Source: Thermoplasma acidophilum DSM 1728 (GTDB taxonomy: Archaea; Thermoplasmatota; Thermoplasmata; Thermoplasmatales; Thermoplasmataceae). Taken from it: a stretch of 64,000 nucleotides of DNA. Shown here one piece after another: positions 49,732 through 55,142 of this stretch (its first letter is position 1; every line of letters starts with the position of its first letter). The DNA lies in contig NC_002578.1 of assembly GCF_000195915.1 (NCBI RefSeq), positions 806,001 to 870,000 of the forward strand, in the 5' to 3' direction. The notes below the pieces were generated by a model, which made no database searches, had not been told where the DNA came from, and worked only from the letters and a program-made list of their open reading frames with translations. The position numbers and the translations under genes were made by a program.

Positions 49732-49740
49732 AGAATTGAA

Positions 49741-49799
49741 TATTTATGCATAAATTAAATGCATAAATGCTTATATATTATGCATATATCACATTATTG
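49741..49799 (+). promoter_or_regulatory. trp operon promoter with three ATGCAT palindromes
   Basis: ATGCAT lies at 49746-49751, 49759-49764 and 49780-49785 within 40 bases, the first and third extended to TTATGCATAA and TTATGCATAT. The TATA box TTATATATTA is at 49771-49780, between the second and third. It is about 25 nt before the ATG at 49800, so the operon mRNA is leaderless. The palindromes bracket the TATA box and are likely operator sites. Confidence 0.65.
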
Positions 49800-50588
49800 A
49801 TGATTAGAAATATCAATCGCGATCCACCGCAGGTTATCTCCGCCCATTTCAACCCGGTGCACTATTCATCACCCGATGTGCCGATCGAAAGCATAAGGAT
49901 GGCGTTCCCTGAGGAGGTGATCAGGCATGAGATGATATTCTCCGAATATGCGGATATGCATGATGATATCGATCGCATCATTTCTGATCTTCGCATATAC
50001 TTCGCAGAGACGCCGAATGGGCTGCGGCTCCAGTCCAGCGTGCCGCTGCTGGCCATACCGGCAGTTTTTCAGATGGTGTACGCCGGTACGGATGTCATAA
50101 CAAAAAACCACGGAAGGGCCTGGAACGAGGCGCTTGAGATCGCGTCGCGTTTGACAGACCGCAGGTTCGAGGTCATGGACGGAAACATCGATGGACCGGC
50201 ACTGCTGAAGGCAGCGGTGGAATCCGGCCGGAAGATTGTGGATCCGGCTATCCCCAACGCCAATGCGATGTACTTCAGGGCGGTGAGGGACAGGATCGAT
50301 TACCGCCGCGATGATTTCAGGTACATCGTTTTCAGCCCGGACGTTCCCGATTCCATCATACCTGTGGTCGAAATGGTCACTGGCATAGACAGGTACGTAA
50401 TTTCCTCGCCCCATGAACCGAAGGAAGCCATGATACCCATCATGGCCGGAACGATGTACGTCAGCGGCTTTGCAATCGGCGATCGCGGCATAACGGATCC
50501 AGCCCTTGTCCGCCGCATAAGAGATGGCTCCGTGGAGATTGTGGACGCCGGTGTTTCCGGTATCGTGCTCATGCGTGATCACCCATGA
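49800..50588 (+). CDS. First gene of the trp operon, function unrecognised
   Basis: A 262-residue soluble protein starting MIRNINRDPPQV, set by the TATA box 25 nt upstream. I recognise no family. SVPLLAIPAVFQMVYAGTDV followed by ITKNHGRAWNEALEIASRL faintly resembles the cofactor-binding stretch of aldehyde-dehydrogenase-fold proteins, but the catalytic cysteine region is absent. Blocks FRYIVFSPDVPDSIIPVV and VYAGTDV alternate with helices, suggesting an alpha/beta fold. Its stop overlaps the trpA start by 4 nt (ATGA), so it is tightly coupled to tryptophan synthesis. It occupies the place where trpB usually sits, but has none of the TrpB PLP motifs. Confidence 0.8.
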   Translation: MIRNINRDPPQVISAHFNPVHYSSPDVPIESIRMAFPEEVIRHEMIFSEYADMHDDIDRIISDLRIYFAETPNGLRLQSSVPLLAIPAVFQMVYAGTDVITKNHGRAWNEALEIASRLTDRRFEVMDGNIDGPALLKAAVESGRKIVDPAIPNANAMYFRAVRDRIDYRRDDFRYIVFSPDVPDSIIPVVEMVTGIDRYVISSPHEPKEAMIPIMAGTMYVSGFAIGDRGITDPALVRRIRDGSVEIVDAGVSGIVLMRDHP

Positions 50589-51295
50589 AGCCGTTCGTCT
50601 ACTTCACCCTGGGATACAGGTACGATGCCATTGCAGAGTTCATGAGAAACTCGGACGGCGTTTACGCCTTCGAGTTCGGCTTTCCAACTTCGAAGCCCGT
50701 TTACGACGGCATCAGGATCAGGAAAACGCATGATCCTGAATTGAACAGGTACAGCGAAGCCGAGAATTCCAGGATCTTCAAAATTGCGGACGATATCGGA
50801 TCTAAGAAGTATGCGCTCATGTACTACGAGGTACTCTCAGCGAATCCGGGAATACTTGATTACCTTAACAGGAACGGCTTCGCCGGTGCAATACTGCCGG
50901 ATCTGATGATCGACCACAGGGATGCCTTTTTTGATGCGGTAGAGAGGCTCAGACAATACTCGCTGGACTACGTTCCCTTCGTAACCCCAATAACGCCGGT
51001 AAAGGTCATGGAGGAACAGATAGCAGCCGGCGGCGACTGGATATACCAGGGCATGATGCCCGCCACCGGAGTGCAGCTTCCGTACAGCATAGATGCCATA
51101 TACAACCATATAAGGCCCTACGCCGGCGGAAAGCGCATAGTCTACGGGTTCGGAATACGCGATGCCGGCACGATGAAGATGCTCGCATCCTACGAGGCAT
51201 TCGGGATAGCGGTCGGAACGGCTGTCGTTGAGATGATGGAGAATCTCGATACAGCTTCCTACCGGAGGCTCATCGAAACCATAATGGAGGCCTGA
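50585..51295 (+). CDS. trpA: Tryptophan synthase alpha chain
   Basis: A 236-residue TIM barrel that cleaves indole-3-glycerol phosphate to indole. YAFEFGFPTSKPVYDGIRIR aligns with the LELGIPFSDPxADGP region, placing the catalytic Glu (in FEFG) and Asp (in YDG). YVPFVTPITPV and GKRIVYGFGIRD are the later phosphate-binding blocks. It is about 25-30 residues shorter than bacterial TrpA (about 265). It needs a beta chain to make tryptophan, and none is encoded in this operon. The start overlaps the previous stop. Confidence 0.92.
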   Translation: MKPFVYFTLGYRYDAIAEFMRNSDGVYAFEFGFPTSKPVYDGIRIRKTHDPELNRYSEAENSRIFKIADDIGSKKYALMYYEVLSANPGILDYLNRNGFAGAILPDLMIDHRDAFFDAVERLRQYSLDYVPFVTPITPVKVMEEQIAAGGDWIYQGMMPATGVQLPYSIDAIYNHIRPYAGGKRIVYGFGIRDAGTMKMLASYEAFGIAVGTAVVEMMENLDTASYRRLIETIMEA

Positions 51296-51299
51296 TCGC

Positions 51300-52268
51300 A
51301 TGTATGAAAGTTTTCTCACCGGCAAACCCATGGACAGGGCCACGGCCATGGACCTCATGCAGTACATGGCGTCCCCGGAGTGCAGCGACGCATTCCGTGC
51401 CGCAGTCCTGTCCGTCCTGAGGGTCCGTGGCGTGACCGAGGACGAGATGATGGGATTCTACGAAGCCATGCATGCTCCGAACGATGTGACTGACGCCACC
51501 GACATCGTCGGCACCGGCGGAGACATGGCCCATACCATAAACGTGAGCACGGCATCGGCCATAGTCGCGGCATCCATGGGCCTGAAGATCGCAAAGTTCG
51601 GAAACAGATCCGCATCGGGCAATCATGGCGCTGCGGACTTCATGTCCGAAACTGGTTATGCGTTTCCTAAGAGCACAGGAGAGGCATTACGCAGGCTATC
51701 CAGAACGAATTTCGTCTTCTTATACGCGCCGGACTTTCTGAAGGAGTTTGCGCTGTTCGCAGGCGTAAGGAAGATGCTCGGCTTTCCCACCGTGCTGAAT
51801 TTTCTCGGACCGATACTGAACCCCCTCTCGCCGATCCGCAGGGTCATAGGCACATCGGACCCCTCGTTCATGGAGCTATACGCAGGCATTGCCAGGCGTT
51901 CCGGTATGCGAGCGATTATTCTGCACTCTGCGGACGGCATGGACGAGATCAGCCCCTTCGCGAAGGCCCGCATAATGCATGTCTCCGATTTGGTCTCGGA
52001 ATCGTACGTGGATGCCTCATCGCTGACAGGGCCTCTGGAGAGGCGGAACATAGCATCCGCGGATCCGGGTGCAATATCCGGCCTCACATTATCTGCCATA
52101 CGCGGGGAGAACGAAGACGGCGCCAGATTCGTTGCCCTTAATACGGCACCGGTGCTGATCATCAACGGCCTCGCTTCGGATTTCCAGGAAGGATATGAGG
52201 CTGCATTGGAACATATAATGAGCGGGGGGCCTGCAGAATTTCTGAAGGTGATCGCAGGTGATCGTTAA
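51300..52268 (+). CDS. trpD: Anthranilate phosphoribosyltransferase
   Basis: A 322-residue transferase that attaches phosphoribosyl to anthranilate. GTGGD at 71-75 is the PRPP loop, and INVSTASAIVAASMGLKIAK follows. KFGNRSASGNHGAADF matches the KHGNR(S/A)xSSxxGxAD signature, with F in place of H and N-H in the loop. FLGPILNPLSPIRRVIG and IILHSADGMDEISPFA are further conserved blocks. It starts 4 bases after the trpA stop and its end overlaps trpF by 11 nt. Confidence 0.93.
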   Translation: MYESFLTGKPMDRATAMDLMQYMASPECSDAFRAAVLSVLRVRGVTEDEMMGFYEAMHAPNDVTDATDIVGTGGDMAHTINVSTASAIVAASMGLKIAKFGNRSASGNHGAADFMSETGYAFPKSTGEALRRLSRTNFVFLYAPDFLKEFALFAGVRKMLGFPTVLNFLGPILNPLSPIRRVIGTSDPSFMELYAGIARRSGMRAIILHSADGMDEISPFAKARIMHVSDLVSESYVDASSLTGPLERRNIASADPGAISGLTLSAIRGENEDGARFVALNTAPVLIINGLASDFQEGYEAALEHIMSGGPAEFLKVIAGDR

Positions 52269-52842
52269 GGTGTGCGGCGTTACGGACTTAAAGGACGCGC
52301 TGATGTTATCGGATGCCGGATCGGACATCATTGGCTTTGTCTTCGATGCTCGCAGCCCGCGCCGGTCGAGCTACAGCACACTGAAGGATGCTGTGGCATC
52401 TGGAATAAAGACCGCTGCCGTTTACACCGACCCGGCGTCCATCATGGCATCGGAGATGGTGGAGGATTTCGTCCAGATCCACTTCCCCCACGACCGGGAA
52501 CTGATAGACTACGTTCACGGCCAGGGCAGGAAGGTCATATCCGTCATCAAATACGGCATAGACGATTTCATGGCAAAGTACAGGGAGTACGGACCGGCAG
52601 ACATAATACTTGTGGAGCGGAAGCCGAAGATCTCTGAGATCATGGGCGCTGAGGAATTCAGAGGAAAGAGGATCGGCTTTGCGGGAGGCATAGGCACGGA
52701 TGACGTTGAAAGGGTCATCGCGGAAAAACCCGTAATGATAGACGTCAGCAGTTCCCTGGAATCGTCACCGGGGCACAAGGATCCCGAGAAGGTACGCGAA
52801 TTCTTCTCTCTGGTTGGTGGTGTGCATGAACCTGATCGATGA
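52258..52842 (+). CDS. trpF: Phosphoribosylanthranilate isomerase
   Basis: A 194-residue TIM barrel carrying out the Amadori rearrangement of phosphoribosylanthranilate. The catalytic cysteine is in VKVCGVTD at the N-terminus (usually KICG), and the acidic partner is in SVIKYGIDDF or nearby. DIIGFVFDARSPRRSS and the phosphate loops RIGFAGGIGTDDV and IDVSSSLESSPGHKD are well conserved. The start is GTG at 52258, inside the end of trpD. The end overlaps trpE by 17 nt. Confidence 0.92.
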   Translation: MIVKVCGVTDLKDALMLSDAGSDIIGFVFDARSPRRSSYSTLKDAVASGIKTAAVYTDPASIMASEMVEDFVQIHFPHDRELIDYVHGQGRKVISVIKYGIDDFMAKYREYGPADIILVERKPKISEIMGAEEFRGKRIGFAGGIGTDDVERVIAEKPVMIDVSSSLESSPGHKDPEKVREFFSLVGGVHEPDR

Positions 52843-53884
52843 GCTCTCAGAGTACAGAGACCGCGGGTCATTGGCTTACTTTGCGTCATTTCCTGATCGC
52901 ATTTCAGGCTACGAGTACGCCTTTCTCGGAGACGGCATGATCACGGATCCGGAGAGGATATTCGACGGGAAGCTCAGGCCCTTGATCGTCACATACGATT
53001 TCGTGAACAGCGTATTCGGACAAAAAGTCCGCAGATCGGGGTGGCCGGAGATGGTCTCGTTCGATCCTGATACGGTTATGAAGAGGAGGATCGTGAGAAG
53101 CGGCTATCTCACCAGAAAGGAGGTCGGCGATTTCTCGGACCCGGATCTTTCCAGGAAAATAGCTGAGGTCAGGGATCTCATAAGATCCGGCGAGGTACTG
53201 CAGGCCGTCATATCGCGCGACTTCGAAGCATGCATAGATCCCTGGGAAAAGCTGCGGGAATTCATAGATCACGATCGGTCACGTTACGTTTTCTACTACA
53301 GGATCGGAAAATACCAGGTCGTCGGGAGCTCCCCCGAGAACCTGGTCACCGTCAGCGGAAACGAGGTGTTCACCGATCCCATAGCGGGTACCGTGCCTTC
53401 CACGGTCAGATCTTCCGTGCTTCTTGAAAGCATGAAGGACGCAAACGAGCACCGCATGCTTCTGGATCTTGCCAGGAACGATCTCAGCAAGTTCGCGGAT
53501 ATCGGTACGCTCGGCGTTTCCAAGGTCATGCAGATAGAGGAGTTCTCCTCAGTGAAGCATCTGGTGAGCCAGGTGCGGGCATCATTTTCAAACACTCCGT
53601 ACCTAGACATACTGAAGTCGATGTTCCCCGCCGGCACGGTGTCCGGATCACCCAAGGAACGTGCAATAGAGATCATAGAGAAGTACGAAGAAACGCCGCG
53701 GGGCCCCTACGGCGGATCCATAGGCATAACCATGGACGGCATGATGGATCTTGCGCTGACAATAAGAAGCGCGTATTCCGATGGCAGCGGATTCCGGGTC
53801 AGGGCCGGTGCAGGCATAGTTAAGGATTCCGATCCTGATGCCGAGGTTCGCGAGATATATTCCAAGGCGAGGTCGGTCATTTGA
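52826..53884 (+). CDS. trpE: Anthranilate synthase component I, compact form
   Basis: A 352-residue chorismate-using enzyme that makes anthranilate with TrpG. Conserved blocks are VVGSSPENLV, DPIAGTVPS (PIAGTRP is usual), ANEHRMLLDLARNDLSKFAD, and FPAGTVSGSPKERAIEII, then PYGGSIG. At this length it is clearly shorter than typical TrpE (420-520). The loss is at the N-terminus, where the tryptophan-binding LLES region of feedback-sensitive enzymes lies, and I see no LLES equivalent. ATG at 52826 has GGTGGTG upstream; the frame opens at 52814. Confidence 0.9.
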   Translation: MNLIDELSEYRDRGSLAYFASFPDRISGYEYAFLGDGMITDPERIFDGKLRPLIVTYDFVNSVFGQKVRRSGWPEMVSFDPDTVMKRRIVRSGYLTRKEVGDFSDPDLSRKIAEVRDLIRSGEVLQAVISRDFEACIDPWEKLREFIDHDRSRYVFYYRIGKYQVVGSSPENLVTVSGNEVFTDPIAGTVPSTVRSSVLLESMKDANEHRMLLDLARNDLSKFADIGTLGVSKVMQIEEFSSVKHLVSQVRASFSNTPYLDILKSMFPAGTVSGSPKERAIEIIEKYEETPRGPYGGSIGITMDGMMDLALTIRSAYSDGSGFRVRAGAGIVKDSDPDAEVREIYSKARSVI

Positions 53885-54432
53885 GCATACTGATAATAAA
53901 CAACCATGATTCGTTTGTCTACAACCTCTTCTACTACGTCCGTTCCGTGGGCGAACGTGTGGACGTTGTGGACAACGACGGATGGGCGGATGCATCGAAG
54001 TACGATAAGGTCATAGTGTCTCCCGGGCCAGGCACACCCCTATCGGCAAGGGACGCTGGAAACATTGCGAAGATGCTGGATGGCTACGGCGGATACGTTC
54101 TGGGCGTCTGCTTCGGGCACCAGATCCTCGCGCACATGCTGGGATCCGAGATCATAACACTGAAAAGGCCATACCACGGCGAGGTTGACGAGGTGAAACA
54201 CAACGGGAGCCCCATATATGACGGCGTACCGGAGAAATTCAGGGCGATTCGCTATCATTCCCTCGCGGTGATTCCGTCCCGCGGGATAATCGTTGATGCG
54301 GTATCCGTAAGCGACGGCACGGTAATGGGGTTTCACACGCCGGATATGCGCATATTCGGGGTGCAGTTTCATCCAGAGAGTTACTTCACGGAATATGGAT
54401 TCCGCATAGTCCAGAACTTCGTGAGATTATGA
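53881..54432 (+). CDS. trpG: Anthranilate synthase component II (glutamine amidotransferase)
   Basis: A 183-residue class I amidotransferase supplying ammonia to TrpE. The nucleophile is C77 in VCFGHQ, VSPGPGTPLSA is the oxyanion strand region, and FHPESYFTE holds the catalytic His and Glu. Length is standard for an unfused TrpG. The start is TTG at 53881, in the TTGA overlap with the trpE stop. No ATG or GTG precedes the conserved ILIINNHDSFVYN opening. It overlaps trpC by 4 nt. Confidence 0.94.
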   Translation: MSILIINNHDSFVYNLFYYVRSVGERVDVVDNDGWADASKYDKVIVSPGPGTPLSARDAGNIAKMLDGYGGYVLGVCFGHQILAHMLGSEIITLKRPYHGEVDEVKHNGSPIYDGVPEKFRAIRYHSLAVIPSRGIIVDAVSVSDGTVMGFHTPDMRIFGVQFHPESYFTEYGFRIVQNFVRL

Positions 54433-55142
54433 ACATCGAAGACATATTCGCCAACAACAGAACGAGGAGTTGCGAGTACAGGCGCGAACGCAGGACCGTG
54501 AGCCTCAGGAGGGCCATAGAACTGTGCAACGGTGAGGGAAGAAGGGGCCTCATAGCGGAGTACAAGCGCAGGTCGCCGTCCGGCTTCAGTACCGATGAGG
54601 ATATCTCATCGTACCTGTCCTACGTGAAGATGCACCGCATAGCCGGGCTGAGCATACTCAGCGAACCCACTCACTTCTCCGGATCATTCGATGACGTGAC
54701 CCTGGCGCACAGGATCGGCGTGCCAGTCCTGGTAAAGGACTTCGCTCCTGATGATCACTTCGTTGAATCTGCCTACAATGCCGGAGGAGATGCCGTGCTG
54801 GCCATACTGGACTTCCTGCCGTCGGAGGATGTTGAGAGAATAGTGCGCAGATCCGCAGATCTAGGCATGGACGTGATCGAGGAGTACCATGACAGAAAGG
54901 CCCTGAAAAAATTCGTGGATGGAGACAACGTCATCCTGGGGTACAACAGGCGCGATCTCGTTAGCCTTAAGACCGGCGAGGATCAGGATATGCCGCAATA
55001 CGACATCACAATACTGGAAAGTGGGATAAACATAGATAATGTCGTTCATGTGGATATGCGATACAGCGGGTTCCTCATAGGAACGTCCATATTGAAAAGA
55101 GACGGCACGCTTGAGTACCTCGAGAAAAACCGCATAATATGA
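54429..55142 (+). CDS. trpC: Indole-3-glycerol phosphate synthase
   Basis: A 237-residue TIM barrel that closes the indole ring. IAEYKRRSPSG carries the catalytic lysine of the ExKxxSPS motif, and LSILSEPTHFSGSFDDV follows. PVLVKDFAPDDHFVESAYNA contains the second lysine region (LxKDF), and LILE-type ends are replaced by ILESGI. Start ATG overlaps the trpG stop (ATGA). Last gene of the operon. The order E-G-C after A-D-F is unusual. Confidence 0.93.
   Translation: MNIEDIFANNRTRSCEYRRERRTVSLRRAIELCNGEGRRGLIAEYKRRSPSGFSTDEDISSYLSYVKMHRIAGLSILSEPTHFSGSFDDVTLAHRIGVPVLVKDFAPDDHFVESAYNAGGDAVLAILDFLPSEDVERIVRRSADLGMDVIEEYHDRKALKKFVDGDNVILGYNRRDLVSLKTGEDQDMPQYDITILESGINIDNVVHVDMRYSGFLIGTSILKRDGTLEYLEKNRII

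Follow-up and report, generated by a model that had tools for sequence, protein, structure and literature searches.

A predicted TrpB2-derived pseudoenzyme in the trpB slot of the Thermoplasma tryptophan operon

Introduction

What has become of trpB in the tryptophan operon of Thermoplasma, and what is the protein that stands in its place? Tryptophan synthase is a textbook model for allostery and channelling. Merkl (2007) described Thermoplasma as carrying an unlinked trpB2 only, invoked gene loss and regarded this arrangement as the least complex state (PMC1854888). We analysed a 64-kb stretch of a 1.56-Mb, single-contig genome (G000:C1:806001-870000, the window), for which the original prediction had described a tryptophan operon lacking trpB and led by an unknown protein, here called X.

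Results

As had been predicted, seven genes are packed together in the order X-trpA-trpD-trpF-trpE-trpG-trpC, with adjoining genes overlapping or at most a few bases apart. Pfam and NCBIfam annotation of all seven ORFs bears out that trpA is present and trpB absent from the operon. X (49800..50588, + strand) encodes 262 aa and is read here as a shrunken TrpB2, a putatively dead pseudo-beta subunit, from synteny, profile-profile comparison, a six-frame search, fold match and dN/dS. Its stop overlaps the trpA start as ATGA at 50585-50588. The trpA gene, of TrpA2 type (50585..51295; PF00290, 49.5 bits), keeps its catalytic residues and is followed after a 4-nt gap by trpD (51300..52268; TIGR01245, 344 bits), trpF (52258..52842; NF002302, 308 bits), trpE (52826..53884; NF005009, 659 bits), trpG with a TTG start (53881..54432; PF00117, 142 bits; TIGR00566, 128 bits) and trpC (54429..55142; NF001374, 307 bits), all on the + strand and with overlaps at every junction after trpA-trpD.

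The operon promoter has a TATA box, CTTATATAT (49770..49778, + strand), with AATG upstream and its centre some 26 nt ahead of the start codon ATG (49800). A 273-aa version of the X ORF from 49767 was rejected because it would begin at the TATA box, and the 262-aa start at 49800 is thus taken as the right one. This agrees with the predicted use of the first start of a leaderless mRNA, the leaderless transcription being suggested by the TATA-to-ATG spacing. The promoter element AATGCTTATATAT lies at the same distance ahead of X in four Thermoplasma genomes, which also keep the protein start M-I-(R/K)-N-I-N; the fifth, G101, keeps the spacing with a close variant of the promoter. A similar element precedes operonic trpB2 in four relatives (G095, G063, G044 and G074).

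Four genomes share an almost unchanged block running from AAATGCTTATATATT to the start codon, although in three of them X itself has just 40-48% identity with the window copy; this near-invariant 5' block suggests a putative regulator site. TGCATA motifs occur several times around the TATA box (window 49740-49799). In G101, ubiE and X are about 400 nt apart (L014:11319-11724), as against about 50-85 nt in the other four genomes.

We then compared the operon across the order. X occurs in 5 of 117 genomes, all of them Thermoplasma, at 26-48% identity to the window copy, and a wider scan of genome contigs for X relatives returned Thermoplasma MAGs and no further genus. The proposed check for co-occurrence with trp genes came out in favour of a link, as X sits in the operonic trpB slot in every Thermoplasma genome (5/5), directly before trpA and after mcm-orf100-ubiE. 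In all 68 non-Thermoplasma genomes of the order with a detected trpA, trpB lies directly 5' of trpA, as judged by eye from the coordinates of the TrpB2 and trpA matches. Sixty-three of these trpB genes are TrpB2, a few being contig-edge fragments or carrying in-frame stops; the other five have only weak TIGR01415 scores and are probably TrpB1. The order trpB2-trpA-trpD-trpF-trpE-trpG-trpC was found in the 18 operons read out, most of them with mcm-orf100-ubiE ahead. By slot, neighbours and promoter, X is therefore the positional orthologue of operonic trpB2.

Since G063 and G095 each carry an operonic and an unlinked TrpB2, the two can coexist in one genome; in Thermoplasma, the unlinked TrpB2 is whole and X fills the operonic slot. 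One incomplete genome, G097, has in-frame stops in both its trpB2 and trpA matches (G097:C1:133578-135492), which may mean that tryptophan synthesis has been lost there or that the assembly is poor.

X had been described as belonging to no recognised family, and our searches concur: neither X alone nor a five-member X profile matched anything in Pfam, NCBIfam or PDB sequences, and X gave no match to the TIGR01415 model of catalytic TrpB2 even at E 10 (curated cut-off 518.85 bits). Single X sequences scored marginally against a TrpB2 HMM. Using hhalign, the five X proteins aligned with 50 TrpB2 at a score of 60.0 (probability 94%, pairwise E 1.4e-7; X columns 18-127 against TrpB2 columns 45-174), compared with a mean of 15.3 (sd 2.7, maximum 25.5) for 100 column shuffles. 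An earlier comparison with 18 operonic TrpB2 scored 48.2, against 15.2±2.3 (maximum 23.3) for 200 shuffles, 17.4 for the reversed profile and no more than 26.1 for other families of the operon. Against TrpB2, ten further gene families taken from these five genomes scored no higher than 31.8. An X-trpA profile score of 26.1 was weak and taken as chance.

The least biased test was a six-frame search of 400 whole genomes with the X profile, which makes no reference to trp genes. It gave 24 matches outside Thermoplasma (E 5e-5 to 0.01), and 22 of these fall by coordinates within TrpB2 genes, while about four chance matches would be expected anywhere at this threshold. In G095, with its two TrpB2 copies, the profile matched the operonic one, and the unlinked Thermoplasma TrpB2 was not among the matches in the 400 genomes.

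The relation above chance is confined to about 110 N-terminal residues (49845..50174, + strand), covering the N-terminal arm, the Lys-loop region and the start of the COMM domain. The C-terminal half (50175..50588, + strand) has no significant sequence relation to TrpB2 and matches it only in the fold of a model: hhalign gave 16.3 against 14.3±2.2 for shuffles, and a semi-global profile alignment gave z 1.7 for the correct and the wrong TrpB2 regions alike. As its score is at shuffle level and its z equals that for the wrong region, we do not claim sequence homology for this half. X gives similar scores with the operonic (48.0) and the unlinked (53.2) TrpB2 sets. X was assigned to the operonic type because of synteny, promoter and the G095 match; its diagnostic residues (15 of the operonic type, 8 of the unlinked type) are too few to decide this alone.

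To see what fold X may adopt, two AlphaFold2 models, one for the window protein and one for its G100 counterpart, were built from the five X proteins as alignment, with no templates and no TrpB2 included. In a PDB fold search, the predicted G100 model (pLDDT 65.1, pTM 0.67) found the two chains of the TrpB2 structure 4QYS first (E 4.2e-4 and 9.4e-4, probability 1.00; TMq 0.49 and 0.47 over 271-312 columns), and the 271 columns aligned to 4QYS by Foldseek are what we cite for the C-terminal half. Lower matches were TrpB1, threonine deaminases and serine racemase, together with SRP-type GTPases at low TM-scores. The G100 model would thus have the fold of type II PLP enzymes. For the window model (pLDDT 62.7, pTM 0.52), 4QYS was again the first PDB match, yet not significant (E 0.028). 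The structure prediction and fold search proposed for the 262-residue protein therefore put TrpB2 first in both cases, significantly so for the G100 model. Because neither model is confident over the first ~54 residues and AlphaFold2 was trained on the PDB, we regard the fold match as support, not proof.

Taken together, these results make descent of X from TrpB2 very probable. As predicted, X occupies the place of trpB; it is no longer an unknown protein there, since synteny, profiles and fold point to it as what remains of that trpB.

We next looked at the active site. X is about 155 residues shorter than TrpB2 (262 versus ~417). The absence of a PLP-lysine motif had been noted before and holds throughout the genus, as the segment opposite TrpB2 GATxTGSHKIN (50034..50054, + strand) is shorter and has no lysine in each of the five aligned X proteins. 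In the remnant of TrpB2 TETGAGQW (50100..50123, + strand), T101 and W108 are invariant, the catalytic Glu is replaced by K/R/L/F and GAGQ is lost. X thus has neither the PLP lysine of SHKIN nor the catalytic Glu and TETGAGQ loop of catalytic TrpB2; the TrpB2 tryptophan matching W108, W110 in P. furiosus numbering, is described as strictly conserved (PMC1854888). There is no GGGSN phosphate-binding loop in X; MAFFT sets AGTMY at that place, where the alignment is uncertain. A by-eye pairing of AGGLRYHAVAP with AGTMYVSGFAI was discarded, as MAFFT puts the segment opposite GGGSN.

Despite its divergence, X is constrained. It is an intact ORF in 5/5 genomes, with 33 residues invariant across the genus. 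In the closest pair, G098-G100, its dN/dS is 0.21-0.24, below 0.27 in both halves and 0.18-0.22 in the C-terminal half; in the same pair trpA has 0.07-0.09 and other trp genes reach ~0.2 at most. X, though constrained, thus evolves faster than every other gene of the operon. As the PLP-lysine segment and the catalytic Glu are gone in five species while dN/dS is ~0.22, X is, judged from its sequence, a catalytically dead yet maintained protein, i.e. a pseudoenzyme.

A distant TrpB2-type beta chain, which the original prediction had proposed to look for, lies ~150 kb away, outside the 64-kb window: a full TrpB2 at G000:C1:702827-704068, the sole TIGR01415 match above the curated cut-off in the genome. 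TrpA residues E30, D41 and Y154 are invariant in the TrpA alignment and are taken to correspond to the active-site residues E36, D47 and Y161 named for P. furiosus TrpA (PMC1854888); Thermoplasma TrpA is predicted to be catalytically intact.

The TrpA active-site loop has a genus-specific form, YQGMMPATG versus YYGLQPSTG in most relatives (window 50585-51295; also L013:8447-9157), and probably lies near the predicted docking place of the beta subunit. In G098, trpA is apparently frameshifted near codons 24-35 (L012:9769-9900), at a GGGG run, which may be an assembly error.

Discussion

Of the roles that had been suggested for X, partner of TrpA is the best-supported. We favour, with moderate confidence, the view that X is the operonic TrpB2_i of the Thermoplasma ancestor, shrunk, stripped of PLP catalysis and retained to serve TrpA as a non-catalytic partner; by analogy with known systems, our confidence that it acts as a TrpA activator is likewise moderate. 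In S. solfataricus, the operonic TrpB2_i was reported to associate weakly and transiently with TrpA, with one-way activation, and the non-operonic TrpB2 not to bind TrpA (PMC1854888). By this precedent, the unlinked full TrpB2 of Thermoplasma may not activate TrpA, which makes X a likely activator. That a dead beta subunit can activate alpha is known from eudicot TSB-like, a dead TrpB paralogue that binds and activates TSA, leading to indole release (PMC12727527). The ancestral operonic TrpB2_i would accordingly be pictured as having shrunk from ~417 to 262 residues with loss of PLP catalysis. X would bind TrpA and raise its otherwise low activity, the activated TrpA would cleave indole-3-glycerol phosphate and release indole, and the free indole would pass to the unlinked TrpB2, which would join it with serine or phosphoserine to give tryptophan. 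The chances seem to us evenly balanced that Thermoplasma has such a three-part tryptophan synthase, composed of TrpA, a mini dead beta that is its obligate allosteric activator, and an unlinked TrpB2 that captures indole. Against an activator role, 26-48% identity within a genus is loose for an interface protein, and X has lost ~155 residues where the plant pseudoenzyme has changes at two key residues; the TrpA interface could have gone with them.

The evidence for TrpB2 ancestry, equally strong here, also allows a relic that took on another job, either as a tryptophan/indole sensor for operon control or by docking TrpA to the unlinked TrpB2. Strong divergence and shrinkage leave room for such a new function, and the unusually conserved stretch just 5' of the X start, with its TGCATA motifs, hints at regulation. 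A role as regulator is possible, yet Pfam, NCBIfam and profile searches found no DNA-binding or known ligand-binding domain in X, the core promoter element also stands before trpB2 in relatives, so that X is not needed for it, and the X/trpA overlap points to stoichiometry with TrpA. We consider a relic with another job rather unlikely.

That same overlap could be taken to mean that X is in decay and survives mainly as an ORF through which translation is coupled into trpA, with the protein as such of little weight; its high divergence and large deletions relative to TrpB2 would fit. Coupling alone, however, puts no constraint on amino acids, and the dN/dS values of the whole protein (0.21-0.24) and of each half (<0.27), the ORF intact in 5/5 genomes and the 33 invariant residues make this reading improbable. 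We give still less credence to an unrelated protein that replaced trpB, such as a new chorismate- or shikimate-branch enzyme. X has no family match in Pfam, NCBIfam or PDB sequences, and shikimate-dehydrogenase folds appear among the weak matches of the window model, but these cover ~100 columns at TMq 0.17 and do not recur among the best 50 matches of the G100 model, and profile comparison, the unbiased genome search and fold all favour TrpB2. The suggested enzyme for another branch from chorismate, or a shikimate-linked step, is thus unsupported.

As a TrpB2-derived partner of TrpA, X would be closest to operonic TrpB2 (TrpB2_i; TIGR01415, COG1350; Thermoplasmatales and Sulfolobales), with which it shares slot, neighbours, promoter position, the N-terminal ~110 residues, predicted fold and the invariant T and W of TETGAGQW. 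It differs in being ~155 residues shorter, in lacking the SHKIN lysine segment, catalytic Glu and GAGQ loop, and in falling below detection by the family model. The unlinked Thermoplasma TrpB2 (TrpB2_a of Merkl 2007) belongs to the same superfamily and genome; unlike X, it is full-length, has the SHKIN lysine and GGGSN, and lies outside the operon, and X is not its recent duplicate. The resemblance to TSB-like is one of working principle: in both cases a dead beta paralogue is retained with an active TrpB elsewhere, and TSB-like acts on the alpha subunit as X is proposed to do. TSB-like arose from TSB via two key-residue changes, is plant-specific and yields defence indole (PMC12727527), whereas X derives from TrpB2, is heavily deleted and lies within the trp operon, where its role would be in tryptophan synthesis; it is not expected to belong to the plant TSB-like clade.

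We found no description of X in the literature searched, nor is it mentioned where PMC2395257 deals with Thermoplasma. What would be new here is a miniaturised, predicted TrpB2-derived pseudoenzyme in an archaeal trp operon. Because a trimmed, non-catalytic trpB descendant appears to persist in the slot under selection, the Thermoplasma state would be derived rather than one of simple loss. If X activates TrpA, the beta subunit's allosteric function would be uncoupled from its chemistry, the split would have arisen in archaea besides plants, and a 262-residue activator would be available for study. If the three-part system is true, X would be an unusually small beta-derived TrpA activator, and Thermoplasma would hold an archaeal counterpart to the TSB-like switch of plants that evolved independently of it.
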